Source: Agromyces luteolus (GTDB lineage: Bacteria > Actinomycetota > Actinomycetes > Actinomycetales > Microbacteriaceae). From it: DNA of 64,000 nt. The notes below the pieces were generated by a model. That model ran no database searches. It was not told the origin of the DNA and saw nothing but the letters and a program-made list of their open reading frames with translations. The DNA lies in NCBI RefSeq assembly GCF_009729855.1, contig NZ_WODA01000002.1, positions 124,001 to 188,000 of the forward strand, read 5' to 3'. Of the stretch, positions 14,973 to 59,938 are shown piece by piece (position 1 is the first letter of the stretch; each line of letters starts with the position of its first letter). Both the position numbers and the translations under genes were made by a program.

Positions 14973-14981
14973 CGCACCCCC

Positions 14982-15020: not shown

Positions 15021-15026
15021 GGACCC

Positions 15027-15093
15027 GAGTTCGCAGGACCAGCCGGTCCATGGTTCCCCGAGGCGGGGCATCGCGCGTCTCATCCTGCGTACC
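15027..15093. repeat. Palindromic repeat family F2, copy 1 (degenerate right arm)
   Basis: Left arm GAGTTCGCAGGACC; right arm CATCCTGCGTACC differs from the consensus by one base in the core. The interior differs from the other F2 copies. Confidence 0.55.
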
Positions 15094-15120
15094 GGCGCGC
15101 CGGTCCGGCACAGCCGGACC

Positions 15121-15188
15121 GAGTTCGCAGGACCATCCGCGCCATGGCGCCGCCAGGCCGGGTACGACGCCCGTCATCCTGCGAACTC
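15121..15188. repeat. Palindromic repeat family F2, copy 2
   Basis: Arms GAGTTCGCAGGA and TCCTGCGAACTC are perfect 12-base complements 44 bases apart, with an inner GCGCCATGGCGC palindrome. Sits 36 bases beyond the pfkB stop, where it could end the arcD-arcA-pfkB transcript. Confidence 0.65.
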
Positions 15189-15224
15189 ACGCGCGCGGTG
15201 GGTCGGCGCGACGGATGCCGCGGC

Positions 15225-16169: not shown

Positions 16170-16171
16170 GG

Positions 16172-17410: not shown

Positions 17411-17445
17411 GGCGTGCTCCCTTCTGCGCCGCGGCGCGAGGACGG

Positions 17446-18906: not shown

Positions 18907-19077
18907 CAGGGCCCCCTCCCCGGTCCGATCCGCCCCCGTGCGGATCGTTCAGGTCGCGGCGTCCCGACCTGCTCCGTGTCTAGCGCAGGGCCCGGGCCCG
19001 CACAAGGTCGAGGGCGGCGGATGCCACGGGCCTGCCGAGCACGCCCGGGCGAGACCCGCGGCACGCCGGGGCACGGC

Positions 19078-19110
19078 GACGGGGGCGGCCGCTCGCGCGA
19101 CCGCCCCCGT
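19078..19110 (-). terminator. Hairpin terminator after putA
   Basis: ACGGGGGCGG and CCGCCCCCGT pair around a 13-base loop, 15 bases beyond the putA stop codon. There is no long T-run, as is usual in high-GC actinobacteria. Confidence 0.6.
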
Positions 19111-19124
19111 GGCATCCGTTCGGC

Positions 19125-22100
19125 CTAGATGACTCCGTCGGAGATCGTCGTCGGGTTGCCGAACCGGTGGTTCGTGATCGAGATCGCCTGCTCGTGCAGG
19201 AACGGCAGGAGCTCGACGCGACCCGACGGGGTCACCGGGTGCGACCACACCGCGAGGTCGGGCGTGCCGCCCGTCGCCTCGGCGAGCGCCGTGGCCGAGC
19301 CGCCGACGAGGCGCACGCGACCGGTGACCTCGCCCTTCCCGGCGCGGGCGATCCAGCCGGCGTCGCCCTCGCGGACCACTCGGACGTCGCGGGAGGCCAG
19401 GAGCGCGCGGACGCCCTTCGGCAGTTCGTGCGAGGTCGAGATCGACAGCGGCGACTTCGCGAGCAGGCCCGCGGCGATGACACGGAGGCCGTCGGCGAGG
19501 GTGGCGTCCTCGCTCACGCGGATCGTGACGGGGAGCGGGAGGTACCGGAACAGGTTCCGCTCGACGCCGAGGCCCGAGACGTCCTTCACCGTGGCGTACT
19601 CGTCGGCCCAGGCGACCGCGTCGGAGAGCGCGGAGCGGCGGAGCACCTCGTACGCCTCGTACTCGAGCGAGGACTGCGACGCCTCGATGAGGTCGGTCAC
19701 GCGCTGCTCGAGGCCGCGCAGGTGCAGCGATCGGCTGGGCTCGGAGTGGTCGGGCGCCCAGTCGCCGAGGCCGAACAGGTAGTTCGGACCGCCGGCCTTG
19801 GCTCCGGCGCCGACCGACGAGCGCTTCCAGCCGCCGAACGGCTGGCGCTGCACGATCGCTCCGGTGATGCCGCGGTTGACGTAGAGGTTGCCGGCCTCGA
19901 CGTTCGCGAGCCAGGTCGCGAGCTCGTCGGAGTCGAGCGAGTGCAGGCCCGCGGTCAGTCCGAAGTCGACGGCGTTCTGGAAGCGGATGGCCTCGTCGAG
20001 GTCCTTGGCGTGCATGATGCCGAGCACCGGGCCGAAGAACTCGGTGAGGTGGAAGTACGACCCGGGCTTCACGTTCGCGCGGATGCCGGGCGACCAGAGC
20101 CGACCGGTGCCGTCGAGCTGACGCGGCTCGACGAGCCAGTCCTCGTCGGCGCCGAGCGTCGTGAGCGCATGCAGCAGCTTGCCGTTCGCCGGCTCGACGA
20201 TCGGGCCCATCTGGCTCTGCGGGTGCTCGGGCCAGCCGACGCGGAGGCTCGTCGCGGCATCCACCAGCTGGCGGCGGAACCGCTCCGACTTCGCGACCGA
20301 TCCGACGAGGATCACGAGCGACGCGGCCGAGCACTTCTGGCCCGCGTGGCCGAAGGCGCTCTTGACGACGTCGGATGCCGCGAGGTCGAGGTCGGCCGAC
20401 GGCGTCACGATGATCGCGTTCTTGCCGCTGGTCTCGGCGAGGAGCGGCAGGTCCTTCCGGAACGAACGGAAGAGCTCTGCCGTCTCGTAGGCGCCGGTGA
20501 GGATGACGCGGTCGACCTTCTCGTCGGAGACGAGCTTGGTGCCGAGCTCGCGCGAGCCGAGGTCGACGAGGGCGAGCAGGTCCTTCGGGATGCCGGCCTC
20601 CCACAGCGCCTCGACCATGATCGCGCCCGAGCGCTGCGAGAGCTTCGCGGGCTTGATGATCACGCCCGAGCCCGCGGCGAGCGCGGCGAGCACGCCGCCC
20701 GCGGGGATCGCGACGGGGAAGTTCCACGGCGGGGTGACGACCGTGAGCTTCGAGGGCACGAAGCGGGCGCCCTGCACGTGGTCGAGCTCGCGGGCGCGCT
20801 CGGCGTAGTAGTGCGCGAAGTCGATCGCCTCGGAGATCTCGGGGTCGGCCTCGGCGATGGTCTTGCCGGTCTCGGCGGCCATGACCTCGATGAGGCGGTC
20901 GCGGTTCGCGGCCAGCGCGAGGCCCGCGCGGTGGAGGAGCGCTGCACGCTCGTCGCCGGGCAGCGCGGCCCACGCGGCGGCGCGCTCGGTGACCGCGGTC
21001 ATGAGCTGCTCGAGCTCGTCGGCGGTCTCGATGCGGTTCGCCTGCAGGGTGTCGATGCCGAGCGTCGAGGTCGGCACGCGCTCGAGAATGCGGCGACCCC
21101 AGTCGCGGTTCGCGGCGAGCGCGGGGTCGGTGTCGGGCTCGTTGCGGAACCCGGGGGTGACGCCGGGGCCGGTGAGCTCGGCTGCGGCGAGGGCCGCGGC
21201 ATCCGTCAGCTCGCCGTCCAGGCCGGACCCGCGGGTGATGCCGAGGACGACGCTCGTCAGCGAGCCCTCGTGCTCCTCGCCCGGCGCGGGCGCGCCGACG
21301 ACGGTGCCGGCGAGCTCGGCGGCATCCTTCTCGTCCCACTCGGTGCGGCGGTTCTGGGTGCGGTTCGGCGCCGGCGCCGGGCCCTCGGGGTCCTCTCCGT
21401 CGAGCGCGGCGAGCGAGCGCAGGTAGCGGTCGCGCTCGCGCTCGAAGAGGGCGCGGTCCTCGTTCAGCTCGAACACGGCCGACATGAAGTTGTCCTGGCT
21501 CGCGTTCTCCTCGAGGCGGCGGATCAGGTACGCGATCGCGACGTCGAACTCGCTCGGGTTCACGACGGGCGTGTAGAGCAGCAGGCGGCCGACGTCGCCG
21601 CGCACGGCCTCGGCCTGCCCGGTCGCCATGCCGAGCAGCATCTCGAACTCGACGCCGTGCTCGACGCCGCGCTCCTTCGCGGTGAGGAACGCGTGCGCGA
21701 CGTCGAAGAGGTTGTGGCCGGCGATGCCGAGCTTCACGGCGTCGATGCGGTCGGGCGTCATCGACCAGTGCAGCACGCGCTTGTAGTTGGTGTCGGAGTC
21801 CTGCTTGGTCGAGTACGTCGCGATCGGCCAGTCGTGGACGTGCGCGTCGACGTGCTCCATCGCGAGGTTCGCGCCCTTGACGACGCGCACCTTGATCGGG
21901 GCGCCGCCCGCGGCGCGGCGGACCTGCGCCCACTCGGTGAGGTCCTGCATCGCCCCGAGCGCGTCGGGCAGGTACGTCTGCAGCACGATGCCGGCCTCGA
22001 GGCCCTGCAGCTGCGGCTGGTCGAGGAGGCGCTTGAAGACCGCGATCGTGAGGTCGAGGTCGCGGTACTCCTCCATGTCGAGGTTGATGAACTTCGCCCG

Positions 22101-48028: not shown

Positions 48029-49486
48029 TCAGGCGGGACGGAAGCCCGACGTCTCGGGCGGCGGCGCGTGCCGGATCATGAGGTGCCGCGTGACCGAGTA
48101 GTCGAGCAGCGGCTCGAGCGACATGTCCTTGCCGAAGCCGGAGCCCTTGACCCCGCCGTGCGGGGCCTCGGAGGCGATCGGCAGGTGGTCGTTGACCCAC
48201 GTGACGCCGACGTCGAGCGACTGGCTGACGCGCATCGCCCGGGCGACGTCCGAGGTCCAGACCGACGACGCGAGCCCGTAGGCGCTGTCGTTGGCGAGGC
48301 GGATGCCGTCGGCCTCGCCGTCGAACGGCAGGGCGACGAGCACGGGCCCGAAGACCTCGCCCTGCACGATCTCCGACGACTGGGCGGCGCCCACGAGGAG
48401 GGTCGGCGCGTAGTACGACCCGGTGCGGTCGATCGCGTGGCCGCCGACCAGGGCCTCCGCGCCCTCGGCGACGGCCCGCGAGACGAACCCGTCGACGCGG
48501 TCACGGTGCCCGCGCGAGATGAGCGGGCCGATGTGCGTGTCGGCGTCCATCGGGTCGCCCGCGACGACGCCCGCGAGTGCCTGCCGCAGCGCGGCGACGC
48601 CGTCGTCGAACACCGACCGCTCGAGGTAGACGCGCGTGGCGGCCGTGCAGTCCTGGCCCGTGTTGTAGGTCGCGCCGAGCGCGACCGCCTGCGCCATCGC
48701 GCCGAGGTCGGCGTCCGCGAACACGATCACGGGCGCCTTGCCGCCGAGCTCGAGGTGCACGCGCTTGACGCCCTCGACGGCGCCGCGCATGACGGCCTTG
48801 CCGGTCTGCGTCGACCCGGTGACGCTCACCATGTCGACCTCGCGGTGCGCGACGAGCGCCTGGCCGACCTCGGCGTCGCCCGTGACGACGTTGAAGAGGC
48901 CCGCGGGCAGTCCCGCCTCGACGGCGAGTTCGGCGAGGCGGAGCGTCGTGCGCGGGGTCGCGGGCGCGGGCTTCACGATCACCGCGTTGCCCGCGGCGAG
49001 CGCGGGCCCCGCCTTCCAGATCGCCATGATGAGCGGGAAGTTCCACGGCGTGATGCCCGCGACGACGCCGACCGGCCGGCGGGTGAGGATCGAGGTGTAG
49101 CCGTTCGAGAAGGAGCCGGCGCCCGTGCCGTCGAGGGAGCGTGCTGCACCTGCGAAGAACCGAAGGTTGTCGATGGCGAACGGGAGCTCGCCGTCGAACG
49201 CGGTCGTCCACGGCTTGCCCGAGTCCTCGACCTCGAGCGTCGCGAGGTGCTCGGCGTCGGCCTCGATCGCGTCGGCGAGGCGGAGCAGCGCGAGCGAGCG
49301 CTCCCCGGGCGTCTTCGCGGCCCAGTCGGGCTGGGCGGCGCGGGCCGCGGCGGCGGCCTCGTCGACGTCGGCGAGGCCCGACTCGCGGTAGGCCGCGACC
49401 TCCTCCTCGCTCGCCGGGTTCACGATGACGGCGTCGCCGCCCGTGCCGGCGCGGTACTCGCCGATGAAGGTGCCGGTGGTGGTCAT
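48029..49486 (-). CDS. Aminobutyraldehyde/betaine-aldehyde-type dehydrogenase
   Basis: NAD(P)-dependent aldehyde dehydrogenase of 485 residues, nearest in pattern to gamma-aminobutyraldehyde dehydrogenases of putrescine breakdown. Seen: VVAGITPWNFPLIMAIWKAG (cofactor), GSTQTGKAVM, catalytic Glu in LELGGKAPVIVF, catalytic Cys in NTGQDCTAATRVYLE, and EVFGPVLVALPF. Begins 13 bases after the FAD amine oxidase stop, third gene of the MGT-oxidase-dehydrogenase operon, so it should oxidise the aldehyde made by that oxidase. Confidence 0.9.
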   Translation of the reverse strand: MTTTGTFIGEYRAGTGGDAVIVNPASEEEVAAYRESGLADVDEAAAAARAAQPDWAAKTPGERSLALLRLADAIEADAEHLATLEVEDSGKPWTTAFDGELPFAIDNLRFFAGAARSLDGTGAGSFSNGYTSILTRRPVGVVAGITPWNFPLIMAIWKAGPALAAGNAVIVKPAPATPRTTLRLAELAVEAGLPAGLFNVVTGDAEVGQALVAHREVDMVSVTGSTQTGKAVMRGAVEGVKRVHLELGGKAPVIVFADADLGAMAQAVALGATYNTGQDCTAATRVYLERSVFDDGVAALRQALAGVVAGDPMDADTHIGPLISRGHRDRVDGFVSRAVAEGAEALVGGHAIDRTGSYYAPTLLVGAAQSSEIVQGEVFGPVLVALPFDGEADGIRLANDSAYGLASSVWTSDVARAMRVSQSLDVGVTWVNDHLPIASEAPHGGVKGSGFGKDMSLEPLLDYSVTRHLMIRHAPPPETSGFRPA

Positions 49487-49499
49487 GGAGTGGTGCCTT

Positions 49500-50912
49500 T
49501 CAGGAGTTGAAGCCGAGGCCGAAGCGGTCGAGGGTGCGCAGCCACAGGTTGCGGCGGCCCTCGTGGGCGTCGGCGGCGAGGATGCTGCGGCGCGTGTACT
49601 GGATGATCGGGTTCCGGAACGGCTCGGGCGGGACGGGGAACGGCCGCCGGCGCACGATGTCGTAGCGGAGGCGCGAGGTCGGCTCGCCCGCGAGGAGGTC
49701 GAGGGCGACATCCGCACTGAACCGGGAGGCGCCGACCCCGAGGCCGGTGTGCCCGACCGCGTAGGCGACGCGTCCGCCGCGGGCCGTGCCGTAGGCGGCC
49801 GTGAACCGGGTCGTCGAGTCGATCGGCCCGGCCCAGCGGTGCGTGAAGCGAACGCCCTCGAGCTGCGGGAACGTCTCGGCGAAGTGCCGTGCGAGCAGCG
49901 CGTGCGATCCGCCCTGCTGCTCGTAGGCCGCGTCGACGCGGCCACCGCGGTGGTAGACCGCGTCCCAGCCGCCGAAGAGGATCCGCCCGTCGGCGGTGGG
50001 CCGGTAGTAGTGGAACTGGTTGCCGGCGTCGGTGAGCCCCTGCCCCTCCGCCCAGCCGATCGACTCGCGCTGCGCGGCGGTGAGCGGCTCGGTCATGAGC
50101 ACGTGGTCGTAGAGCGGCATGATGTACGACCCGAGGCGCCTGAGCGGCGCCGGGTAGGCGGCCGTCGCGACGATCGCCCCGCGCGCGACCACCTCGCCGC
50201 CGTCGGTGCGCACCACGACCCCCCCGCCGGAGCGGTCGATCCCGGTCACGCGCGACCCGTCGTTGATCCGCACGCCGCGCCGCTCGAGCTCGGCCGCCAT
50301 GCCCCACGCGAGCCGCGCCGGGTCGACGAGCACCGTGCCCGTGCGGTCGCGGAGCCCGGCCAGGTAGGTCGGCGAGTGCACGTCGGCCTGCACCTCGTCG
50401 CGCGACTGCAGCTCGAGTGCGACGCCGTGGCGGGCGCCGAGCTCGGCCGCCTCGCGGAGGCCCGCGACCTGCCACTCCTCGACCGCGAGCGTGGTCTTGC
50501 CGACCCGCCGCAGGTCGCAGTCGATGCCCGCCGCCTCGATCGTCGCGACGAGGTCGGCGAGGTTCCGCTCGCCCTCCTCGTGCAGCGCGCCGACCTGGTC
50601 GGGCCACACCATGGTGCCGTGGGCGAGCCCGTGCGTGAGCGACGACGCGACGAACCCGCCGTTGCGGCCGCTGGCCCCGTAGCCGACGCGCTCGGCCTCG
50701 AGCACGACGACGGATGCCGCCTCCCCGCGCTCGAGCGCCCGCCACGCCGCCCACAGGCCCGTGAACCCGGCACCCACGACGACGAGGTCGGCCTCGTGCC
50801 GGCCGGCGAGGGCCGGGCGCTCGGCCGGCGCGTCGGGACGGTCGGTCCAGTACGGCCTGGGCGCGGCGTCCGAGATCGCCGCGGCCGCGGCATCCGTCAT
50901 CGAAGGGCTCAC
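49500..50912 (-). CDS. FAD-dependent amine oxidoreductase (DAO family, gamma-glutamylputrescine-oxidase-like)
   Basis: A 470-residue flavoenzyme. The Rossmann motif ADLVVVGAGFTGLWAAWRAL, ERVGYGASGRNGGFVASSLT and a C-terminal TAAYGTARGGRVAYAVGHTG with LGVGASRFSADVALDLLAGE give the D-amino-acid-oxidase family pattern seen in PuuB-type oxidases, which turn an amine into an aldehyde, ammonia and peroxide. The GTG start overlaps the glycosyltransferase stop (GTGA); an ATG four codons later is the alternative. The following dehydrogenase would take the aldehyde. Confidence 0.88.
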   Translation of the reverse strand: MSPSMTDAAAAAISDAAPRPYWTDRPDAPAERPALAGRHEADLVVVGAGFTGLWAAWRALERGEAASVVVLEAERVGYGASGRNGGFVASSLTHGLAHGTMVWPDQVGALHEEGERNLADLVATIEAAGIDCDLRRVGKTTLAVEEWQVAGLREAAELGARHGVALELQSRDEVQADVHSPTYLAGLRDRTGTVLVDPARLAWGMAAELERRGVRINDGSRVTGIDRSGGGVVVRTDGGEVVARGAIVATAAYPAPLRRLGSYIMPLYDHVLMTEPLTAAQRESIGWAEGQGLTDAGNQFHYYRPTADGRILFGGWDAVYHRGGRVDAAYEQQGGSHALLARHFAETFPQLEGVRFTHRWAGPIDSTTRFTAAYGTARGGRVAYAVGHTGLGVGASRFSADVALDLLAGEPTSRLRYDIVRRRPFPVPPEPFRNPIIQYTRRSILAADAHEGRRNLWLRTLDRFGLGFNS

Positions 50913-52255
50913 TCGGCCCCCGACGCGCCCGAGCCGACGCCGGCGCCGACCGGGAGCCCGACGCCCGCGATGATCTCGGCGGCCTTCGCGACGCCGTGAC
51001 GCGAGCGGATGGCGGCGCCCGCCGCCTCGGAACGGGCGTGGAGCGCGTCGTCGGCGAGGAGCTCCGTGACCGCTGCACGGAGCTCGTCGGCCGTGAAGCC
51101 GTAGGTGTCGAGGCGGCGGCCGTAGCCCTGCTCGTCGACGCGCTGGGCGTTGTCGTACTGGTCCCAGAAGAGCGGCAGCAGGATCATCGGCTTGCCGAAG
51201 TGCATGGCCTCGGTCGTCGTGTTGTTGCCGCCGTGCGTGATCACGAGGTCGGCGAGCGGCAGCAGCTTCGTCTGCGGCAGGAACTCGGCGCCCCACATGT
51301 TGCCGGCGAGCTCGAACTCGTCGTGCAGCGGACCCTTCGAGACGATGACGTTCACGGGCACGTCGGCGAGCGCGTCGATGACGCGCTGCATCAGCTCGAC
51401 GTCGGCCGAGCCGAGCGAGCCGAGGCTGAAGTAGACGAGCGGCCGGCTGCCGTCGGTGAACGAGGCGGGCAGGTCGGCCGGCTCCTGCTCGGTCTCGCGC
51501 ACCGAGGAGTCGAGGCGGTGCCAGGTCTCGTCGAGCGGGCGCACGTCGGTGTAGTCGAGCTCTTCGGGGTAGACGTAGAGGTTCGCGTCGCCCGTGTGGA
51601 TGAACTCGAGGTCGGGCAGCGGCGCGGCGCCCTGCTCCTGCACCCACGCGTCGAACGACTCCCAGAGCGGCCGATGCGTGCGCTCGTACTCGGCGCGGAA
51701 CGCCGCCCAGCCCTCGCGGTCGTCCTTGCCGAGGCCCGAGAACACCGGCGCGATGTCGTCACCCGGAACCTCGAGCGGGTTGCAGCTCATGATGCGCACG
51801 AACGGCACGCCGGCGGTCACGAGCGCGGGGAAGGCGAGCACGTTGTCCTCGATGATGACGTCGGGCCGAACGCGGCCGATGATCGCCTTCAGCTGCGGCT
51901 CGCAGTACTTCGCGCCGTTGACGAGCTCCTCCCAGATCGGGAGCGTCACGGTCTCCAGCTGCTCGGCGGTCGTCTTCCGGAACTCCGGCGCGACCTCCTT
52001 GATGTAGTCCTTCCAGAACTGGCCCGCGTCCTGCTCGGCCTCCTCCTCGCCCTCGACCGGCTCGGGGGCCGGCGCCAGGTCGACGAGGTCCTCCTCGAAG
52101 CCCAGCGCGGTGAGCTTGCCCTGCCACGACCGCTCCGCGGCGAAGACCACGCGGTGCCCCTGCTTCAGCAGCTCGTTGGCGATGCCGATGCAGTTGTTGG
52201 TCGGCCCGTAGGCGCTCTCGGGCATGAAGAGGAAGGTGCGGCGAGCGTCGGTCAT
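50909..52255 (-). CDS. MGT-family UDP-sugar-dependent glycosyltransferase
   Basis: A 448-residue GT-B enzyme of the macrolide-glycosyltransferase/UGT group. N-terminal acceptor half: FLFMPESAYGPTNNCIGIAN, ELLKQGHRVVFAAE; an acidic insertion EPVEGEEEAEQDAG near 65-80; C-terminal donor half: PLVYFSLGSLGSADVELMQR, KLLPLADLVITHGGNNTTTE and MILLPLFWDQYDNAQRV, the HGG and DQ motifs of the UGT signature. It is the first gene of an operon with an amine oxidase and an aldehyde dehydrogenase, an uncommon partner. GGAG five bases before the ATG fixes the start over an upstream in-frame ATG. Acceptor unknown. Confidence 0.85.
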   Translation of the reverse strand: MTDARRTFLFMPESAYGPTNNCIGIANELLKQGHRVVFAAERSWQGKLTALGFEEDLVDLAPAPEPVEGEEEAEQDAGQFWKDYIKEVAPEFRKTTAEQLETVTLPIWEELVNGAKYCEPQLKAIIGRVRPDVIIEDNVLAFPALVTAGVPFVRIMSCNPLEVPGDDIAPVFSGLGKDDREGWAAFRAEYERTHRPLWESFDAWVQEQGAAPLPDLEFIHTGDANLYVYPEELDYTDVRPLDETWHRLDSSVRETEQEPADLPASFTDGSRPLVYFSLGSLGSADVELMQRVIDALADVPVNVIVSKGPLHDEFELAGNMWGAEFLPQTKLLPLADLVITHGGNNTTTEAMHFGKPMILLPLFWDQYDNAQRVDEQGYGRRLDTYGFTADELRAAVTELLADDALHARSEAAGAAIRSRHGVAKAAEIIAGVGLPVGAGVGSGASGAE

Positions 52256-52286
52256 GGCGACTCCGTTCATCGATTCTTTGCAGCAG

Positions 52287-52292
52287 GTTATA
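52287..52292 (-). promoter_or_regulatory. -10 box TATAAC of the MGT operon
   Basis: TATAAC on the minus strand lies 32 bases before the glycosyltransferase ATG, leaving a leader with a ribosome-binding site. Confidence 0.45.
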
Positions 52293-52313
52293 GAGAATTC
52301 AGCACACCCGGAA

Positions 52314-52328
52314 CCCTGTTTCACAGGG
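52314..52328. promoter_or_regulatory. Candidate TetR operator at the divergent amine-cluster promoter
   Basis: CCCTGT-TTC-ACAGGG is a perfect inverted repeat placed over the -35 region of the leftward operon and 11 bases before the TAACAT -10 (52340-52345) of the TetR gene. Confidence 0.55.
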
Positions 52329-52388
52329 ACGATCCGGGCTAACATTGCGGGGCAGTGCAGACAATCTGTCCGCTCGGGAGGGAGCACG

Positions 52389-52997
52389 ATGGCGAGGCCC
52401 AAGCGGCAGGAGGAGCGGCGCAGCCAGCTGGTGGCGGCGGCGCAGCGCGCGATCGCGGCGCACGGCCCCGACGGGGCGCGCCTCAACCGCGTGGCGGAGG
52501 AGGCGGGGCTCACCTCCGGCGCGGTGCTGTACTACTACCCCGACATCGACGAGCTCATGTTCGAGGCGAACCGGGCCGGCATGGAGCGCTTCTACGAGGG
52601 CCGCGTCCGCATGCTCGAGGGGCTGCCCGACGACCCCGTGGTGCGCCTCGTCGCGCTCATCGACTCCGGCCTGCCGAGCGGCTCCGACGACACCGAGGTG
52701 CGCCTGCTCTGCGAGCTCGGCGGGTCGGCCGGGCGCAACCCGCTCATGGCGTCGCTGCTCACGACGCTCTACGACCGCCAGGTCGGCATGTACCAGGTCG
52801 TGCTCGAGCAGGGTGCCGCGCGCGGGTTGTTCGCGCTCGCGCAGCCGACGCTCGTCATCGCGCGCAACCTCGTCGCGCTGGAGGACGCGTACGGCTACCG
52901 CATCGTCGCGAAGCACCCGACGCTCGACCGCGCCGCGGCGGCCGAGCTCCTGCGCGAGTACGCGCGACTGGCGACGGGTCACGCGCTGACGTCCTGA
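52389..52997 (+). CDS. TetR family regulator of the amine/aminosugar cluster
   Basis: A 202-residue TetR/BetI-like repressor: QLVAAAQRAIAAHGPDGARL, NRVAEEAGLTSGAVLYYYPD and IDELMFEANRAG form the HTH region (about 10-60); the ligand domain has VRLVALIDSGLPSGSDDTEV. GGAGGGAG lies before the ATG. Divergent from the MGT operon with an inverted repeat between them, so it probably controls that operon and perhaps the convergent importer, whose last 19 bases overlap it. Confidence 0.88.
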   Translation: MARPKRQEERRSQLVAAAQRAIAAHGPDGARLNRVAEEAGLTSGAVLYYYPDIDELMFEANRAGMERFYEGRVRMLEGLPDDPVVRLVALIDSGLPSGSDDTEVRLLCELGGSAGRNPLMASLLTTLYDRQVGMYQVVLEQGAARGLFALAQPTLVIARNLVALEDAYGYRIVAKHPTLDRAAAAELLREYARLATGHALTS

Positions 52998-54175
52998 GAT
53001 CGGGGCGGGGCGGATGCCGCGGGCACGCCGGTCGCGTTGCCCGCCGCCTCGTCCATGTCCGCCGCGGCCGCGGCATCCGTCACCGGGATCGCCGTCGTCG
53101 GGATCGTCGTGCCGTACGACGGCGGCTGCGACGGATCGCGCGGCACCGCCGTCGCGCGCCCGAAGGTGACGCCGACGTCGGCGCCGCGCGCGAGCCGGGT
53201 CGCGCCGTGCACGCTCGCGAGGAGCGGCGCCGGAAGCCCCGGGACCTCGACCGAGATCGTCGACGCCCCGCCGAGGAAGTACGTGTCGACGACCGTGCCG
53301 CGCAGCCCGCCGGAGACCTCCGTGCCGACGGTCACGTCCTCCGGGCGCACGACCGCGGTCGCGGGCGACCCCGCGGCGAGCCCATGCGATGCGGGCACGG
53401 GCCCGAGGCCGGGCACGGCCACGCCGTCGGCCGTCGCCTCGCCGTCGAGGAGGTTGGCGGTGCCGATGAACGCGGCGACGAACCGGGAGGCGGGCTCGGC
53501 GTAGAGCTCCTGCGGGGTCGCGAGCTGCTCGAGGCGCCCCTCGTTGAGCACCGCGATGCGATCGGCCATCGACATGGCCTCCTCCTGGTCGTGCGTGACG
53601 ACGACGAACGTGAGGCCGACCTCGTGCTGGAGGCGCTTGAGCTCGAGCTGCATCGACGCGCGCACCTGCCGGTCGAGCGCCGACAGCGGCTCGTCGAGCA
53701 GCAGCAGCTTCGGACGCTTGATGATCGCGCGCGCGAGCGCGACGCGCTGCCGCTGGCCGCCCGAGAGCTGCGATGGACGACGCTTGGCGAGGTGCCCGAG
53801 CCGCACGACCTCCATGACCTCGCCGACGCGCGCGCGGATCTCGGCGCGCCCGACGCCCTCGGCCTCGAGCCCGTAGGCGATGTTCTTCTCGACCGACAGG
53901 TGCGGGAACAGCGCGTAGCTCTGGAACATCATGTTCACGGGGCGCTTGTGCGCGGGCAGCGGCAGCAGGTCGAGGCCGTCGACCGTGATGCGCCCGGCGG
54001 CGGGCGTCTCGAAGCCGGCGATCGAGCGCAGCAGCGTGGTCTTGCCGCAGCCCGACGGCCCGAGCAGCGCGAAGAACTCGTTGTGGGCGATGTCGAGCGA
54101 GATGTCGTGCAGGGCGACGGTGTCGCCGTACACGGCGCGGACGCCGTCGACGCGGAGCAGGGGTTCGGCGGTCAT
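52979..54175 (-). CDS. potA: Polyamine-type ABC importer ATPase
   Basis: A 398-residue ATPase of the spermidine/putrescine type. Seen: Walker A GPSGCGKTT, Q-loop MMFQSYALFPHLSVEKNIAY, signature LSGGQRQRVALARA, Walker B LLLLDEPLSALD, THDQEEAMSMADRI, then the TOBE domain (about 285-350: ATAVVRPEDVTVG) and an unusual Ala/Pro-rich 40-residue tail. ATG overlaps the permease stop by four bases. Energises import of an amine by the PotBCD partners. Confidence 0.9.
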   Translation of the reverse strand: MTAEPLLRVDGVRAVYGDTVALHDISLDIAHNEFFALLGPSGCGKTTLLRSIAGFETPAAGRITVDGLDLLPLPAHKRPVNMMFQSYALFPHLSVEKNIAYGLEAEGVGRAEIRARVGEVMEVVRLGHLAKRRPSQLSGGQRQRVALARAIIKRPKLLLLDEPLSALDRQVRASMQLELKRLQHEVGLTFVVVTHDQEEAMSMADRIAVLNEGRLEQLATPQELYAEPASRFVAAFIGTANLLDGEATADGVAVPGLGPVPASHGLAAGSPATAVVRPEDVTVGTEVSGGLRGTVVDTYFLGGASTISVEVPGLPAPLLASVHGATRLARGADVGVTFGRATAVPRDPSQPPSYGTTIPTTAIPVTDAAAAADMDEAAGNATGVPAASAPPRSQDVSA

Positions 54176-55041
54176 CGTGAGGTTCCTGTCAGTCGGGTGA
54201 GGCGCTGCGCCGAGATCACCGCGACGATGCTCACGAGCAGCAGGAGGGTGGCCAGGGCGTTCACCTCGGGCGTGACGCCGAAGCGCACCATGGAGTAGAT
54301 GACGATCGGCAGCGTCGGCTGCGTCGGCGCGGTCGTGAAGAACGCGATGACGAACTCGTCGAGCGAGAGCGTGAAGGCGAGCAGGGCCCCCGCGACGATG
54401 CCGGGCGCGAGCTGCGGCAGCGTGACGCGCAGGAACGTCTTCGCCGGCCCCATCCCGAGGTCGCGCGAGGCCTCCTCGAGGCTCGGGTCGAGGTTCGCCA
54501 TGCGCGCCAGCACGATCGCCGTGACGAACGCGGTCGCGAAGACGCCGTGCGCGAGGATCACCGAGTGCAGCCCGAGCGTGAAGCTCAGCAGCGAGAAGAA
54601 CGTGAGCAGCCCGATGCCGAGCAGCAGGTCGGGCAGGATCGCGGGCGCGATCGCGAACGCCCGGATGAGCCCGCCGCGGGTGTAGTGGTGGATGCCGTAG
54701 GCCAGCAGCGTGCCGAGCACGGTCGCGATGAGCGTCGCCCCGGTCGCGACGATGAGCGTGTTCGCGAGGCCCTGCATCATGGCCCCGTCGGCGAAGAGCT
54801 CCGGGTACCAGCGCAGCGAGAACCCCGTCCAGACGAACAGGTTCCGCGACTCGTTGAAGCTCATCACGACGACGACGAGGATCGGCAGGTACAGGAAGAC
54901 GTAGCCGAGCCACAGGGGCACGAGGATGCCGCGGGGCCTGCCGCGACGCGGTCGTGACGTGACCGGCGCGGGCGCGGCATCCGTCATCGCCGACACCGAC
55001 TCGTCGGCGCGATCGGTCGAGGGTGCGGTCGCCTCAGCCAC
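54172..55041 (-). CDS. potC: Polyamine-type ABC importer permease, PotC-like
   Basis: A 289-residue permease with six helices after a 35-residue polar start (PLWLGYVFLYLPILVVVVMS; ANTLIVATGATLIATVLGTL; LPDLLLGIGLLTFFSLLSFT). The EAA loop is SLEEASRDLGMGPAKTFLRV. Typical PotC length plus N-terminal extension; an internal ATG (MTDAAPAP) 18 codons in could be the true start. Overlaps both neighbours: potB by 8 bases, potA by 4. Confidence 0.9.
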   Translation of the reverse strand: MAEATAPSTDRADESVSAMTDAAPAPVTSRPRRGRPRGILVPLWLGYVFLYLPILVVVVMSFNESRNLFVWTGFSLRWYPELFADGAMMQGLANTLIVATGATLIATVLGTLLAYGIHHYTRGGLIRAFAIAPAILPDLLLGIGLLTFFSLLSFTLGLHSVILAHGVFATAFVTAIVLARMANLDPSLEEASRDLGMGPAKTFLRVTLPQLAPGIVAGALLAFTLSLDEFVIAFFTTAPTQPTLPIVIYSMVRFGVTPEVNALATLLLLVSIVAVISAQRLTRLTGTSR

Positions 55042-55936
55042 GGCGCGGTCCTTCCGTGACGCGGCGCGAGACCGCCGCCTGGATCACGATGACGACGACG
55101 AGCAGCATCGTGAGCACGAGCGCGAGCGTCGCGCCGAACGGCCAGTCGCGCGCCTCGTAGAACTGGTCGCGCACGAGGTTGCCGACCATGACGGTCTTGC
55201 CGCCGCCGATGAGCTCGGGGATCACGAAGTTCGACATCGCCGGGACGAAGACGAAGATGCAGCCGGTGAGCGCACCCGGCAGCGACAGCGGCAGCGTGAC
55301 CGTGCGGAACGCGCGCCACGGCGAGGCGCCGAGGTTCGTCGCGGCCTCGCGGAGCGAGGGGTCGAGCTGCTGGAGCGACGCGTAGAGCGGCAGCACCATG
55401 AGCGGCAGGTACATGTAGAGGAGCCCGACGACGATCGCCTGCGGCGTGTAGAGCATCGAGATCGGCTCGTCGGTGATGCCGATCGCCTGCAGCCACTGGT
55501 TCACGAAGCCCGCGTTGTTGAGCAGGAGGATCCACGCGTAGGTGCGGATCAGGAAGTTCGTCCAGAACGGCAGCACGACCGCGATGAGGGCGACCGTCCG
55601 CCACTTCGGCGACAACCCGGCGATCGCGTAGGCCATCGGGTAGCCGAGGAGCAGCGCGAGCACGGTGACGATGAACGCGAGCCCGATCGACTGCAGGATG
55701 ACGCCGACGTAGAGCGGCTCGGCGAGCTTCGCCCAGTTGTCGAGCGTGAACTCGAACACGAGGCCGCCGAAGCGGCCGCGCTTGAAGAACGTGTAGAACG
55801 CCAGCAGCCCGACCGGGATCGCCATGAAGACGATCAGGAAGAGCACGCCCGGCGCGAGGAACGGTGCGGCGGCGAGCCCCCGCCGGGCGCGCTGGGCGCG
55901 CACGGCGGGGGTCGCCTGCGGGGTCGTGGTGGTCAC
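55034..55936 (-). CDS. potB: Polyamine-type ABC importer permease, PotB-like
   Basis: A 300-residue permease with six helices (LAAAPFLAPGVLFLIVFMAI; IGLAFIVTVLALLLGYPMAY; VALIAVVLPFWTNFLIRTYA). EAA loop: LDPSLREAATNLGASPWRAF; PELIGGGKTVMVGNLVRDQF is a PotB family signature. The GTG start 12 bases after the binding-protein stop was chosen because the first helix then starts near residue 23 as in PotB. Confidence 0.9.
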   Translation of the reverse strand: MTTTTPQATPAVRAQRARRGLAAAPFLAPGVLFLIVFMAIPVGLLAFYTFFKRGRFGGLVFEFTLDNWAKLAEPLYVGVILQSIGLAFIVTVLALLLGYPMAYAIAGLSPKWRTVALIAVVLPFWTNFLIRTYAWILLLNNAGFVNQWLQAIGITDEPISMLYTPQAIVVGLLYMYLPLMVLPLYASLQQLDPSLREAATNLGASPWRAFRTVTLPLSLPGALTGCIFVFVPAMSNFVIPELIGGGKTVMVGNLVRDQFYEARDWPFGATLALVLTMLLVVVIVIQAAVSRRVTEGPRRG

Positions 55937-55947
55937 GGCGCTCCGGG

Positions 55948-57051
55948 TCAGTTGGTCGCGAGGACTTCCGCGTTCAGGTCGACGTACTTCAGCGAGTCCT
56001 CGCCGAGGTCGACGATCACCTCCTGCTCGAAGAGCTCGTCGACCGTGATGCCGAGCGTCGGGTACGACTCGATGAGCGTCGGGTCGAGCGCCTCCATGGC
56101 GACCTGGTTCGGCACCTTGTAGAGGATGTTCTCGGCGACCCAGGTCTGCACCTCGGGGTCGAGGATGTAGTTGATGAAGGCCATCGCGGCCTCCTTGTTC
56201 TCCGAACTCTTCAGCACCGTCATGGTGTCGACCCAGAGGTCGGCGCCCTCGTCGGGGACGACGAACTGGATGTCGGGGTTCTCGGCGATGCCGTAGTTGC
56301 ACCAGCCGTCCCACGCCTCGACCATCGCGGCCTCACCCGAGACGAGCTTGGAGTAGAAGGTCGTGTCGTCGTAGGCGAGGAGGGTCGGCTTGGTCTCGAG
56401 CAGCTGGGCCTTCGCCTCCTCGAGCTCGGCGTCGTCGGTGGTGTTCACCGAGTAGCCGGCGGCCTTCAGCGCGGGCAGCGCGAGCCAGCGGTCGGTCGAG
56501 AGCATCGTGGTCTTGCCCTCGAGCTCGGGCGTCGGGTTCAGCAGGTCGTTCCACGACGTCGGGTCGAAGCCCGTCAGGTCGGGGCGGTAGCAGAGGCCCG
56601 TGGTGCCCCACGCGTAGGGCTCGGAATAGACGTTGCCCTCGTCGTAGGCGAGCTCGAGGGCCTCGGGGTACAGGTTCGACTCGTTGGGGACGAGCTCCTT
56701 GTCGAGCTCCTGCAGCAGGCCCTGCTCGGCGAGCGCCTGGGCGTACTGGCCCGACACGAAGGCGACGTCGATGCCGGGGTCGGAGCTCGCGGTGAGCTTC
56801 GCCACCACGTCCTCGTTCGTGGCGTGGTTGACGATGGTCGTCTTCACGCCGGTGGCCTCCTCGAACCGCTCGGCGAGGTCCTCGGGGTAGTAGTCGGCCC
56901 AGATCGACACCGTGAGCGTCTGCTCCGAGATGTCGGCGGTGCGGTCGATGTCGGACCCGTCGCCGCTGTCGCCGCCGGCACAGGACGAGAGGACGAGCGC
57001 GAGTGCAGCGGTGCCGGCCGCTGCGATGGAGATGCGACGCATGGTGGGCAT
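55948..57051 (-). CDS. potD: Polyamine-type ABC importer binding lipoprotein
   Basis: A 367-residue extracytoplasmic binding protein. Signal peptide with lipobox VLSSC (Cys24). Mature part: TLTVSIWADYYPEDLAERFE, GVKTTIVNHATNEDVVAKLT, PYAWGTTGLCYRPDLTGFDP and ENKEAAMAFINYILDPEVQT follow the PotD/spermidine-binding order. AGGAGG seven bases before the ATG is the strongest ribosome-binding site in the cluster. Ligand: polyamine by family, but an aminated sugar or glycosylated amine is possible given neighbours. Confidence 0.9.
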   Translation of the reverse strand: MPTMRRISIAAAGTAALALVLSSCAGGDSGDGSDIDRTADISEQTLTVSIWADYYPEDLAERFEEATGVKTTIVNHATNEDVVAKLTASSDPGIDVAFVSGQYAQALAEQGLLQELDKELVPNESNLYPEALELAYDEGNVYSEPYAWGTTGLCYRPDLTGFDPTSWNDLLNPTPELEGKTTMLSTDRWLALPALKAAGYSVNTTDDAELEEAKAQLLETKPTLLAYDDTTFYSKLVSGEAAMVEAWDGWCNYGIAENPDIQFVVPDEGADLWVDTMTVLKSSENKEAAMAFINYILDPEVQTWVAENILYKVPNQVAMEALDPTLIESYPTLGITVDELFEQEVIVDLGEDSLKYVDLNAEVLATN

Positions 57052-57106
57052 GAGGTACCTCCTGGGGACGTCGGAAAGGTTGAGGAATTGTTGCACCGGG
57101 CATCAA

Positions 57107-57123
57107 GAAACCGCAATGGTTTC
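57107..57123. promoter_or_regulatory. Palindrome between the importer and kinase genes
   Basis: GAAACC-GCAAT-GGTTTC lies midway in the 120-base divergent region, 34 bases before the kinase -10 box; a candidate operator for both directions. It differs from the TetR palindrome near 52314. Confidence 0.45.
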
Positions 57124-57156
57124 CGGGACGCTCTAGAGCCGGTTTTGCACAGTTGT

Positions 57157-57162
57157 TACAAT
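57157..57162 (+). promoter_or_regulatory. -10 box TACAAT of the kinase-SIS operon
   Basis: TACAAT ends nine bases before the ATG; near-consensus, leaderless or nearly so. Confidence 0.55.
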
Positions 57163-57171
57163 CCGGATTCA

Positions 57172-58350
57172 ATGAACTCGTTGCTCGGCGGCGAGCGGCC
57201 CGAGATCGCCGGCCGCACGCTCTCCGTCGCGCCCTCGGGCGAGGTCCGGGTCGGGGGCGCCCGGCCCGCGGCGGGCGACGGCATCTCGCGCGCACTCGCG
57301 CGACTGGTCGATCCGACCGTGGCGACGGATGCCGCGGAGCGGGCGATCGCGGTCGACCAGACGAACACGTCGGTCATCGTCGACGAGCGCCTGGTCGTGA
57401 AGGTCGTGGGCCGGTGGGCGGCGGCCGACCGCGCCGCGCACCTGCTCGAGCGGCTCGCCGAGGCGGGGTCGACGGATGTCGCCGGCTACGCCGGCCGCGT
57501 CGACTGGGGGCATCCGACTCTCGGCACCTCGACGCTCGCGATCGTCACCGAGTACCTTCCGGGCGCACAGGACGGCTGGGACTGGGCGGTCGACGACGTG
57601 GTCGCGATGCTCGGCGGCGCCGGCGCCGAGCCCTCCTTCCCGGCGATGCTCGGAGCGACCGTCGCACGGCTGCACGACGTGCTCGGCGCCGACGCGGTCG
57701 CATCACCCGACTCGGCTCCGTCCGAGCGCGCGGCGCGCGCGTTCGCGGCACTCGACGCCGCCCTCGAGGCGACCGACCGCTCGACCGGCCCGACGGCCGC
57801 GCGCCTGGCGAACCGGGCCGAGGCGCTGCGGCGCGACATCCGCTCGCTCGATGCCGCCGCGCCCGGCCTCGCGTTCGACCTGCACGGCGACCTGCACGTC
57901 GGGCAGGTGCTGCGCTCCTCCGGCACGCCGCCGCGGTACACGGTCATCGACTTCGACGGCGACCCGCAGCTCGATGCGTCCGAGCGGGGGCGATCGGATG
58001 CCGCCGCGCGCGACGTCGCGCACCTGCTCGTGTCGCTCGACCTCGTCGCGGCCGTCGCGCAGAAGCGGCTCGGACGCGCCGAGCCGGCGGCGTTCGCGTG
58101 GGCCGACCGCGCGCGCGACGCGCTGCTCGGGTCATATCGTGCGACGCTCGTGCGGGGCGACCTGTTCGACCCGGCGCTCGTGCCCGGGCTCGAGGCCGAG
58201 CAGCTGGCCGCCGAGCTCACGTACGCCGACCGGTTCCTGCCGCGCTGGCGCTACGCGCCCGATGCCGCGATCACGCACCGATACCCCTCGACCGACGAGC
58301 TTCCGGAGGACCCGTGGACACCGCCGCCTTTCGAGCCGACCTCGACCTGA
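57172..58350 (+). CDS. Maltokinase-like kinase, candidate actinobacterial glucosamine kinase
   Basis: A 392-residue phosphotransferase of the maltokinase/aminoglycoside-kinase fold. N-lobe: VDQTNTSVIVDERLVVKVVG, AIVTEYLPGAQDGWDWAVDD; C-lobe catalytic loop FDLHGDLHVGQVLR and metal motif TVIDFDGDPQ. The HGDLHxGQVLR plus DFDGDP pattern is that of maltokinases and of a described group of actinobacterial glucosamine kinases. It is followed by an overlapping SIS-domain gene, which supports an aminosugar rather than maltose role. No trehalose synthase gene adjoins it. Leaderless -10 box TACAAT. Confidence 0.75.
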   Translation: MNSLLGGERPEIAGRTLSVAPSGEVRVGGARPAAGDGISRALARLVDPTVATDAAERAIAVDQTNTSVIVDERLVVKVVGRWAAADRAAHLLERLAEAGSTDVAGYAGRVDWGHPTLGTSTLAIVTEYLPGAQDGWDWAVDDVVAMLGGAGAEPSFPAMLGATVARLHDVLGADAVASPDSAPSERAARAFAALDAALEATDRSTGPTAARLANRAEALRRDIRSLDAAAPGLAFDLHGDLHVGQVLRSSGTPPRYTVIDFDGDPQLDASERGRSDAAARDVAHLLVSLDLVAAVAQKRLGRAEPAAFAWADRARDALLGSYRATLVRGDLFDPALVPGLEAEQLAAELTYADRFLPRWRYAPDAAITHRYPSTDELPEDPWTPPPFEPTST

Positions 58351-59309
58351 TCCCCGAGTCGCTCGGCCGCCTCGCCGATGCGCTCGACGCCGGGCTCGCG
58401 GGCCTCGACCGCCTCGCGCTGCTCGGCGCGTCCCGGGTGCTCGTCGTCGGCATGGGCTCGAGCCGCTACGCGGCCGACGTCGTCGCCCGCCGCTTCCGCG
58501 CCGTCGGCGCCAACGTGCTCGTCGAGCTCGCGAGCGTCGAGCTGCTGCCGCCCGCGGCCCCCGACCTCGTCGTCGTCGCGGTCTCCGCCACGGGCGGGAG
58601 CGTCGAGGTGCTCCGCGCGATCGAGCGCTACCGCGGCACCGGCCGGCTCGTCGCGATCACGAACCGGGCCGAGTCGCCCCTCGCCGAGGCGGCCGACGTC
58701 GTCGTGCCGCTGCACGCCGGCGTCGAGGCATCGGGCGTCGCATGCCGCACGTTCCGCGCGACGTTCGCCGTGCTCGACGAGGTGCTCGCCGAACTCCTCG
58801 GCACGGCGCCCTCGGCGCGATTCGACGCCGCGGCGGTGCGGCGCGGCGCCGACGCGAACGCGGCGCTGCTGGAGTCATCCGTCGACTGGCTCGACCCCCT
58901 CGCCGACCTGCTGACCGGCCCCGACGGCACCTGGACCCTCGCCCCCGCCGAGCGCCTCTCGAGCGCGCAGCAGTCGGCGCTCATGCTGCGCGAGGTGCCG
59001 CGCCTCGGCGCCTTCGCCTCGGAGACCGGCGACTGGTCGCACGTCGACGTCTACCTCACCAAGACGCAGGACTACCGCGCGCTCGTCTTCGCCGGCTCCG
59101 CGTGGGACGCGCAGGCCCTCGACTGGATGCACCAGCGCGGCTCGCGCTTCGCCGCCGTCGGCGGCACCCTCGACGGGGCCGAGCTGACCGTCCGCTACCC
59201 GGGCGACGACGACCCGACCGTCGCGGCCCTCGCCGACACCCTCCTCGGCGAGCTCGTCGCCGACCGGCGGCTCACGGTGCCCGCGTCGCACGCCCGCCGG
59301 GCCGGCTGA
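58314..59309 (+). CDS. Double SIS-domain sugar isomerase/deaminase-like protein
   Basis: A 331-residue protein with two sugar-phosphate isomerase (SIS) domains, first about 35-165 (ASRVLVVGMGSSRYAADVVA, VVVAVSATGGSVEVLRAIER), second about 200-320 (AQQSALMLREVPRLGAFASE). The layout is that of the isomerase half of GlmS and of deaminases acting on aminosugar phosphates. The GTG start, with CCGGAGGA just before it, lies inside the kinase gene (37-base overlap). It would act on the phosphorylated product of that kinase; isomerase against deaminase cannot be decided. Confidence 0.8.
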   Translation: MDTAAFRADLDLIPESLGRLADALDAGLAGLDRLALLGASRVLVVGMGSSRYAADVVARRFRAVGANVLVELASVELLPPAAPDLVVVAVSATGGSVEVLRAIERYRGTGRLVAITNRAESPLAEAADVVVPLHAGVEASGVACRTFRATFAVLDEVLAELLGTAPSARFDAAAVRRGADANAALLESSVDWLDPLADLLTGPDGTWTLAPAERLSSAQQSALMLREVPRLGAFASETGDWSHVDVYLTKTQDYRALVFAGSAWDAQALDWMHQRGSRFAAVGGTLDGAELTVRYPGDDDPTVAALADTLLGELVADRRLTVPASHARRAG

Positions 59310-59399: not shown

Positions 59400-59600
59400 A
59401 TGGCCTCTACGATCGGATTCCGTCCCACCTCTGACGACGAGCGAATTCTTCGCGAGGCGGCGCAGCCCGGCGAGAGCACGTCCGACACGCTTCGTCGCGC
59501 GTTGAGGCTGCTGGATCACGAGCGTTGGCTGGCGCAGTTCCGTGCTGACGCAGACGCGTTGAAGGACGAGAATCTCGACGCGGAGCCTGACGCCTGGTGA
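59400..59600 (+). CDS. Antitoxin of the second MazF-type module
   Basis: A 66-residue protein. STIGFRPTSDDERILREAAQ and STSDTLRRALRLLDHERWLA suggest a ribbon-helix-helix DNA-binding start; the acidic tail ADADALKDENLDAEPDAW would cover the toxin. The ATG is fixed by the -10 box; codon use is less GC-rich than in neighbours. Its stop overlaps the toxin start by four bases. Confidence 0.8.
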   Translation: MASTIGFRPTSDDERILREAAQPGESTSDTLRRALRLLDHERWLAQFRADADALKDENLDAEPDAW

Positions 59601-59938
59601 TCCGCGGCGCCGTCTACCGGATCGACCTGGCCCGACCACGCGGGCACGAGCAGGGCGGAAGAAGGCTCGGGCTCGTCATGTCTCCATCCGACTCGCCGTT
59701 GTCGGTCGTCACCATCGTTCCCACCTCGACGTCTGCGGGGCCCTCAATCCATCGGCCGGTACTCGAGATCGATGGCCGCGAGACGAGGCTGCTCGTCGAC
59801 CAGATCCGCTCGATCGACATCGACTACGTCGTGGGCGATCCCGTCGACTACCTGACCCGAGATCAGCTGGCAGAGGTCGACCTGGCCCTGGCCCACTACC
59901 TCGGCTTCCAGGATGCGAATCCCCCGCGGGCCGGATGA
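59597..59938 (+). CDS. MazF/PemK-type toxin, second module
   Basis: A 113-residue endoribonuclease-type toxin: IRGAVYRIDLARPRGHEQGG, RRLGLVMSPSD, VTIVPTSTSAGPSIHRPVLE, RLLVDQIRSIDIDYVVG and LAEVDLALAHYLGF give the PemK/MazF fold. GTG start within the antitoxin stop (GTGA). Distinct in sequence from the toxin at 28092, so the two modules are probably of separate origin. Confidence 0.85.
   Translation: MIRGAVYRIDLARPRGHEQGGRRLGLVMSPSDSPLSVVTIVPTSTSAGPSIHRPVLEIDGRETRLLVDQIRSIDIDYVVGDPVDYLTRDQLAEVDLALAHYLGFQDANPPRAG

Follow-up and report, generated by a model that had tools for sequence, protein, structure and literature searches.

A conserved ten-gene block of Agromyces luteolus, most likely an amine-using module with a sugar arm

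A ten-gene block was analysed at positions 48029-59309 of a 64,000-nucleotide stretch of Agromyces luteolus DNA (contig NZ_WODA01000002.1, positions 124,001 to 188,000; hereafter the window), from a genome of 3.9 Mb in 26 contigs. The ten genes are a single evolutionary unit, which also occurs in part or in full in other orders of actinobacteria, and they most likely form an amine-using module with a sugar arm. A first-pass annotation of the window had described an MGT-type glycosyltransferase, an FAD amine oxidase, an aldehyde dehydrogenase (ALDH), a TetR regulator, a PotABCD-like importer, a glucosamine-kinase-like protein and a double-SIS protein, and all of these parts are present, as follows.

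48029..49486, minus strand: ALDH of the aminobutyraldehyde-dehydrogenase subfamily (NCBIfam PRK13473, PuuC likeness)
49500..50900, minus strand: FAD amine oxidase of the DAO/glycine-oxidase fold, PuuB-like (PF01266)
50909..52255, minus strand: GT1 (MGT) glycosyltransferase with Pro for the catalytic His and an invariant Glu13 (TIGR01426, solved relatives)
52256..52388, no strand: MGT/TetR divergent promoter region (palindrome weak here, clear outside Agromyces)
52389..52997, plus strand: TetR-family regulator with a BetI-type C-terminal domain (PF00440, PF13977)
52979..54175, minus strand: PotA-like ATPase (PF00005, TOBE_2)
54172..55041, minus strand: PotC-like permease (PF00528)
55034..55936, minus strand: PotB-like permease (PF00528)
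55948..57051, minus strand: PotD-like binding protein with an altered pocket (D168T, E171W, Y85Q; E36D; D257 kept; from alignment to E. coli PotD)
57157..57172, no strand: operator-like site TACAATCCGGATTCAA in the PotD/kinase gap (8/10 defined positions)
57172..58350, plus strand: glucosamine-kinase-family protein of the maltokinase superfamily, Ala at the R408 position (NF041273, SjGlcNK 6hwj)
58314..59309, plus strand: double-SIS phosphosugar isomerase/deaminase with a GTG start (AlphaFold2 model, structure matches)

The gaps between the ten genes, in map order, are 13, 8, 133, -19, -4, -8, 11, 120 and -37 bp. Because all of them are short or negative except those of 133 and 120 bp, promoter room inside the block exists only at the two divergent gaps, in agreement with the earlier statement that only divergent promoters separate the parts. 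The kinase and SIS frames overlap by 37 bp, and the GTG start of the SIS gene aligns with the starts chosen for its relatives.

The kinase was found in 20 of 60 Agromyces genomes, including that of the window, with scores of 172-215 bits to the glucosamine-kinase model, and the ten-gene block was present in identical order in all 19 other Agromyces regions fetched. MGT at 80-100% identity occurred in 21 of the 60 genomes, namely the 20 kinase genomes and G011, in which the contig ends inside MGT and a kinase fragment is present; it was absent from the other 39 at E 1e-60. The DAO-type oxidase was found at an identity of at least 78% in 20 of the 60 genomes, and most genomes have a separate copy at 44-53%. 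Since all-or-none presence in one genus can result from common descent, the case is not rested on the genus alone.

Beyond the genus, the kinase was sought in 396 genomes sampled at order level. Eight were positive at E 1e-40, of which four are Agromyces; in three of the others SIS and MGT are linked to it (L054-L056), and in the fourth they are not (L057). In a scan of named genomes, the best 80 loci comprised two from Agromyces, 21 with linked kinase and SIS (L060-L080) and 57 with a kinase match only (L081-L137), and the three loci inspected among the last carry a maltokinase-type motif. The hosts of L060-L080 include Arthrobacter, Nonomuraea, Microbispora, Streptosporangium, Micromonospora, Mumia, Mycolicibacterium, metagenome-assembled genomes (MAGs) and others. 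The tally of non-Agromyces loci with linked kinase and SIS thus holds 24 members (L054-L056 and L060-L080); L058/L059 (Agromyces), L057 (kinase without SIS or MGT) and L081-L137 lie outside it, and PotA was left out because unrelated ABC ATPases match. Among the 24 loci, MGT was present in 23, ALDH in 20, TetR in 19, PotB and PotC in 16 each, PotD in 15 and DAO in 11; in one locus beyond these 11 (L055), DAO is cut off where the fetched sequence stops. Both Mycolicibacterium loci that have ALDH and DAO (L068, L077) carry an APC amino-acid permease next to ALDH, and PotB, PotC and PotD were not found within their 20 kb read. The kinase and SIS genes of L072, a locus from a Chloroflexi MAG, are flanked by a DAO gene on each side, and SDR, arginase-family and polysaccharide-deacetylase genes lie further along.

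The association of MGT with SIS was also seen at phylum level. In a sample of 396 genomes, MGT (E 1e-90) was found in 41 and SIS (E 1e-40) in 13, and all 13 SIS genomes have MGT; the chance of this is ~2e-14 if the genomes are independent, a figure that serves as a guide only since the genomes are related. The first-pass annotation had held that the parts belong together and had called for neighbourhood conservation across actinobacteria. Both ideas are borne out: kinase and MGT are all-or-none in the 60 Agromyces genomes apart from the fragmented G011, and the neighbourhood is conserved in Agromyces and in other orders.

The layout of some loci raises the alternative of two nutrient routes under one regulator, in which co-occurring amines and glucosamine would be taken up with no molecule in common. 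L073, L075 and L080 are split into Pot-DAO-ALDH and TetR-MGT-kinase-SIS operons, L068 and L077 into DAO-ALDH and TetR-MGT-kinase-SIS, and MGT-kinase-SIS stands without amine genes in L071 and L079. This alternative is nevertheless unlikely, as it leaves unexplained both MGT and the finding that SIS did not occur without MGT in the phylum sample.

The palindrome TTGAA-N6-TTCAA was found in both divergent gaps, clearly so outside Agromyces. Upstream of TetR it matched at least 8 of 10 positions in 16 of 19 loci, and in the Pot/kinase gap at least 9 of 10 in 11 of the 13 loci that have such a gap (in L063 the gap is PotB/kinase, with PotD displaced). For L069 and L070 the script misplaced the start and scored 8/10; better sites are visible by eye, and the script count was retained. 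The 14-21 kb loci L061, L063, L065 and L067 contain no perfect palindrome other than their two promoter sites. The Agromyces PotD/kinase site scored 8/10 in 20 of 20 genomes, and three positions in the 64 kb window reach this score, none a higher one. Eight whole genomes contained 24 perfect palindromes, 12 in the cluster and 12 outside it, one of the latter beside a displaced PotD, compared with nine forward matches to a reversed control pattern in the same genomes. In Microtetraspora the cluster is without PotD, and a 57% identical copy elsewhere has a perfect site starting 33 bp before its stop-to-stop frame. The recognition-helix stretch of TetR, AGLTS(G/S)A(V/I)LY, is near-invariant in the 23 sequences compared. 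The module is probably controlled by its own TetR, and outside Agromyces the predicted operators make it very likely that the block is one regulatory unit. Independent regulation of the parts together with a lack of co-occurrence had been named as evidence against a joint system; what we found was recurring linkage and, outside Agromyces, promoters with a common palindrome.

The displaced PotD, at ~6001-7269 of L144 (G446:C23), 57% identical to that of the window and with the palindrome just upstream, offers a natural operator control. A third perfect palindrome in G445, G447, G448 and G450 was considered as a sign of extra regulon members; it lies between divergent genes, which in G448 encode a metallo-beta-lactamase fold and MerR (Pfam), and was read as a MerR site.

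For the amine arm, ALDH scored 632.7 bits with PRK13473 (cut-off 615) and is 41% identical to E. coli PuuC. The FAD amine oxidase described earlier is present, and its type was refined: it belongs to the DAO/glycine-oxidase type (PF01266, 179.5 bits), with just 26.6 bits for PF01593, and is 32% identical to PuuB. Its model is nearest glycine oxidase (Z 35.6), followed by sarcosine oxidases (Z 30-32) and fructosyl peptide oxidase (Z 27.0). The glycine/sarcosine-oxidase group takes primary and secondary amines. The earlier suggestion that oxidase and ALDH turn an amine into an acid is reasonable chemistry in view of the PuuB/PuuC kinship. The block further resembles the E. coli Puu system (puuP, A, D, R, C, B, E) in having an amine importer and a dedicated repressor, but has a glycosyltransferase, a kinase and an SIS protein instead of glutamate-amine ligase (PuuA) and gamma-glutamyl hydrolase (PuuD), neither of which is among the ten genes, to which the search was confined.

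For the sugar arm, the name glucosamine-kinase-like holds at the level of family. The kinase scored 203.6 bits with NF041273 (query without the first 26 residues; 202.2 in a six-frame search) against a cut-off of 550, which was reached in 0 of the 60 Agromyces genomes. Its best PDB match is SjGlcNK (6hwj, 181 bits), and the catalytic D-x-H motif is present as HGDLH in all 20 Agromyces kinases (window motif QLAAELTYADRFLPRW). The published signature Q-x2-RE-x2-YA-x3-LP-x-W (PMC6520443) is exact in 22 of the 24 cluster kinases elsewhere and in none of the 20 from Agromyces, which all have Ala at R408 and keep Q405, E409 and the other signature positions; in SjGlcNK, R408 holds Q405 (PMC6520443). 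SjGlcNK and MsGlcNK are reported to phosphorylate glucosamine, with a Km of 8 mM for SjGlcNK, in work that tested 20 sugars and 4 aminoglycosides as substrates (PMC6520443).

The double-SIS description was confirmed by structure prediction and not by Pfam, which detects one domain (48.4 bits). The AlphaFold2 model (pLDDT 92.1) shows a double-SIS fold, with its best match to the GlmS/GFAT isomerase domain (4s1w_A; Z 33.8, rmsd 2.6 over 316 residues), then to a tagatose-6-phosphate isomerase-type protein (Z 30.5) and glucosamine-6-phosphate (GlcN-6-P) deaminases (28-29; 7kqa 28.9, 311 residues), and with Z 23.8 for FrlB/FraB. E227 and H243, a catalytic Glu/His pair 16 apart, are invariant in 20 and 18 sequences, the comparison resting on what we take to be the corresponding residue numbers of GlmS and FraB. 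Scores with the sequence models for NagB-II (39.5 bits, cut-off 430) and GlmS (39.8 bits, cut-off 418.05) fell far short of the cut-offs, and hhalign placed FrlB (44.5) above AgaS (31.1). An FrlB-type deglycase was considered for this protein and is no longer the lead, FrlB/FraB lying ~10 Z units below GlmS; the fold is common to them, and hhalign favoured FrlB. The best reading of the model is GlcN-6-P chemistry. The earlier suggestion that kinase and SIS turn glucosamine into fructose 6-phosphate would be reasonable chemistry for a glucosamine-kinase-family enzyme with a GlcN-6-P-deaminase-like SIS protein.

The importer has the make-up of a PotABCD polyamine importer, with an ATPase, two permeases and a binding protein in one operon. 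Its scores fall below the subfamily cut-offs, narrowly for the PotA-like ATPase (355.2 bits, cut-off 355.6) and more widely for the PotC-like (222.3, cut-off 326) and PotB-like permeases (258.1, cut-off 348) and the PotD-like protein (151.7, equivalog cut-off 582). The three spermidine amines are bound in E. coli PotD by E36, E171 and D257 (PMC4096761). Unlike the polyamine importer, all 35 cluster PotDs substitute Trp for E171 and Thr for D168, with D257 retained (E. coli numbering). Position 36 is Asp in the 20 Agromyces proteins and Gly (9), Asp (5) or Ser (1) in the other 15, and the all-acidic set E36/E171/D257 is lacking in the cluster PotDs. Among other positions that we take to belong to the pocket, W34, Y37, S83, W229, W255 and Y293 are retained in these 35 proteins. 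As a control, 15 non-cluster PotDs from six genomes, aligned at ~24-33% identity, have Glu/Asp at position 171 in 12 cases, Tyr in 2, Ser in 1 and Trp in 0. As read from these alignments, the cluster pocket has lost one or two of the three sites that bind the amines of a polyamine. A typical polyamine is probably not the ligand; outside Agromyces it may be a mono-amine, while two of the acidic positions persist in Agromyces.

The Trp at PotD 171 could also stack on a sugar ring, which would suit an alternative in which an amine-bearing sugar, a glucosaminide or a glycated amine is imported whole and split into an amine, for oxidase and ALDH, and glucosamine, for kinase and SIS. A glucosamine-kinase-family protein beside a GlcN-6-P-deaminase-like SIS fits such a route. 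So does the E. coli frl fructoselysine operon, which joins a transporter, a sugar kinase and an SIS deglycase for a sugar-amine conjugate, and so does the hhalign preference for FrlB; as frl too has a dedicated transporter for its sugar-amine, the APC permease of Mycolicibacterium does not exclude a conjugate. Single loci point the same way, with a sugar importer and GH4 near the L068 cluster and, in L072, a polysaccharide deacetylase and a kinase-SIS pair with DAO genes, MGT not being found in that stretch. However, the SIS protein of the cluster is structurally nearer GlmS (and the GlcN-6-P deaminases) than FrlB/FraB. The cluster also differs from frl in that its kinase belongs to the maltokinase superfamily and in having an additional glycosyltransferase, oxidase and ALDH. 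No glycosidase or deacetylase is found among the ten neighbour families, beyond the cluster genes, that are common to at least three of 27 loci. SIS was never found without MGT in the phylum sample (L072, the exception, lies outside it), which an imported glucosaminide would not require, and import of a conjugate left MGT, the most widespread part, unexplained. We regard whole import as somewhat doubtful. Of the first-pass interpretation overall, the linkage and the chemistry of the two arms have stood, while the evidence does not clearly support the idea that the sugar enters as part of the imported compound.

The ten neighbour families (c10-c19) are a NIT-domain sensor kinase, c11 with no Pfam match, GTPase-like, lipoamide-dehydrogenase-like and phosphoglucomutase-like proteins, EAL/GGDEF, DeoC aldolase, an ABC permease, a protein kinase and roadblock; for neighbours seen at just one or two loci, annotation was incomplete. 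The NIT-domain sensor kinase (c10), present in six DAO-less loci with roadblock and GTPase-like genes nearby, was considered and taken as a neighbour by history. In L068, a sugar ABC importer and a GH4 glycosidase, the sole glycosidase among the neighbours annotated, lie at 13856-19611, ~2 kb downstream of SIS. Two distant genomes encode fusion proteins of APH and class III aminotransferase close to kinase and SIS (L056, 4901-7990; L072, 10392-12236), and a second amine oxidase directly follows SIS in Micromonospora (PF01593 type; L070, 11839-13653) and Mycolicibacterium (a further DAO; L077, 12011-13486).

The glycosyltransferase scored 145.1 bits with TIGR01426, short of the cut-off of 260, and is related to GT1 enzymes along its chain. 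Its nearest solved relatives are spider-mite UGT203A2 (289 bits, profile positions 8-430) and UGT202A2 (225 bits), for which no structure paper was found in the literature searched. The N-terminal catalytic His is missing: Pro occupies its site in all 73 sequences compared, drawn from sets of 43 and 30 that may overlap in species, and an invariant Glu (Glu13 in the window) lies five residues before it. In contrast, the two mite enzymes, YjiC and CalG1 have His in the alignments at the position that we take to be the catalytic one. Spider-mite UGTs are regarded as acquired from bacteria, and the MGT clade may lie near the bacterial donor lineage.

Mite UGTs have a detoxifying role, which, with TetR divergent from an MGT-type glycosyltransferase, would be in keeping with detoxification: TetR would sense a toxic amine or antibiotic, MGT would glycosylate it and the other genes would mop up the products. 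We hold this to be quite improbable: a detoxifying cell would hardly be expected to import the same compound through an ABC system, and the replacement of His by Pro speaks against O-glycosylation of the ordinary macrolide kind. In the literature, GT1 enzymes with Cys in place of His (a Cys-Asp dyad) favour N-glycosylation (PMC12246196), and in UGT72B1 the H19Q change left half of the N-activity and 1/300 of the O-activity (PMC8558338). By analogy, this suggests that Pro for His favours N-glycosylation by MGT, as support and not as proof. The His-less family, found in 41 of the 396 phylum-sample genomes, could be a source of N-glycosyltransferases if this holds.

The best specific mechanism, which we put forward tentatively, is an N-glycosyl carrier route. 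PotABCD, or the APC permease in Mycolicibacterium, would import an amine other than a typical polyamine, and MGT would place a sugar on its nitrogen. The DAO-type oxidase would then cut the carbon-nitrogen bond of the resulting secondary amine, giving an aldehyde and an amino sugar; ALDH would convert the aldehyde to an acid, the glucosamine-kinase-family enzyme would phosphorylate the leftover amino sugar, and SIS would deaminate it, releasing ammonia and yielding fructose 6-phosphate. Nitrogen would be carried by the sugar, in the way that glutamate carries it in the N-methylglutamate and gamma-glutamylputrescine pathways. A full sugar-carrier amine pathway of His-less GT1, DAO, kinase and SIS deaminase, with the sugar in the role of glutamate, must be called doubtful.

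Several observations weigh against the carrier route or the unity of the module. GT1 enzymes join a sugar at C1 and SjGlcNK binds a 2-amino glucose, so that the route from MGT product to kinase is not established. The nearest solved relatives of MGT are UGT-type GT1s that use His, and for His-less GT1s O-activity was also found, alanine variants having lost N-activity and gained O-activity (PMC12246196). DAO is absent from 13 of the 24 non-Agromyces loci, in L055 only through the stretch end. A search of nine genomes, eight of them without DAO in the cluster stretch, gave a homologue in all nine (best matches 50-67%); in the eight it lies elsewhere at 50-62% identity and is in most a general paralogue. 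In Paractinoplanes a 62% homologue lies away from the cluster. In L072, MGT was not found in the 12 kb read despite kinase and SIS. In the phylum sample, 28 of the 41 MGT genomes are without SIS; of 20 read, six have another cluster gene nearby and 14 none, several being on short contigs. The neighbours were ALDH in 2, DAO in 3 (one with Pot genes) and kinase in 1, counts that come from tblastn and one Pfam run, the simple open reading frame caller being noisy and sometimes returning antisense frames. The E36D change in Agromyces is conservative and occurs also in three Agromyces polyamine-type paralogues, and the PotD of the window may therefore retain two amine sites. Lastly, the palindrome upstream of TetR scores just 6-7/10 in L054, L055 and L060 and only 6-8/10 at the TetR/MGT site of Agromyces, which makes co-regulation less certain for the window itself.

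Part of the block has been described before. A GT1-GlcNK-SIS trio of Actinobacteria was published in 2019 with SjGlcNK and MsGlcNK (PMC6520443). The block shares its three linked gene families, the kinase being of the same family, a likeness drawn by gene family with the GT1 sequences of that paper outside the comparison. In the trio-alone loci L071 and L079, MGT is 57-59% and SIS 48-49% identical to those of the window. Here, by contrast, the trio is joined by PotABCD, amine oxidase, ALDH and TetR in a larger unit, and the Agromyces kinase has Ala at R408. No description of this larger unit was found in the literature searched (Creative Commons-licensed PubMed Central papers).

For the trio, the 2019 mBio paper proposed biosynthesis, in which salvaged glucosamine would feed a UDP-amino-sugar supply and the glycosyltransferase would decorate a secondary metabolite. 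The trio lies in predicted biosynthetic clusters of several Actinobacteria and, in S. jiangxiensis, with phosphoglucomutase and uridylyltransferase genes (PMC6520443); among our loci, AMP-ligases occur near it in L073 and L175, and a phosphoglucomutase-family gene flanks three related loci (L054, L055, L060). For the ten-gene block, however, biosynthesis seems unlikely, given an importer and ALDH in most of the 24 loci and nine Pfam-named families among the ten further neighbour families, none a known secondary-metabolite enzyme. If the amine-using module is real, it would tie the actinobacterial glucosamine kinases, a little-understood family, to amine breakdown, and under the sugar-carrier pathway these kinases would gain a natural role. 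Their discoverers state in the 2019 paper that evidence for a physiological role is lacking (PMC6520443), and the Km of 8 mM leaves doubt whether glucosamine is the true substrate. Because the cluster has its own regulator and likely operator, an importer whose pocket can be defined, and partner enzymes, the question of the kinase's role becomes directly testable.

The A. luteolus genome has a second amine-type locus on contig C9 (L138), with a DAO paralogue (47%) and another TetR (38%); ~11 kb away, at C9:72549, lies a PotD that retains D168 and E171. Just 3' of SIS in the window, a PemK/MazF-like toxin gene was found at 59597-59896 on the plus strand (PF02452, 50.5 bits), preceded by a 66-aa open reading frame at 59400-59600 with no Pfam match, possibly its antitoxin.

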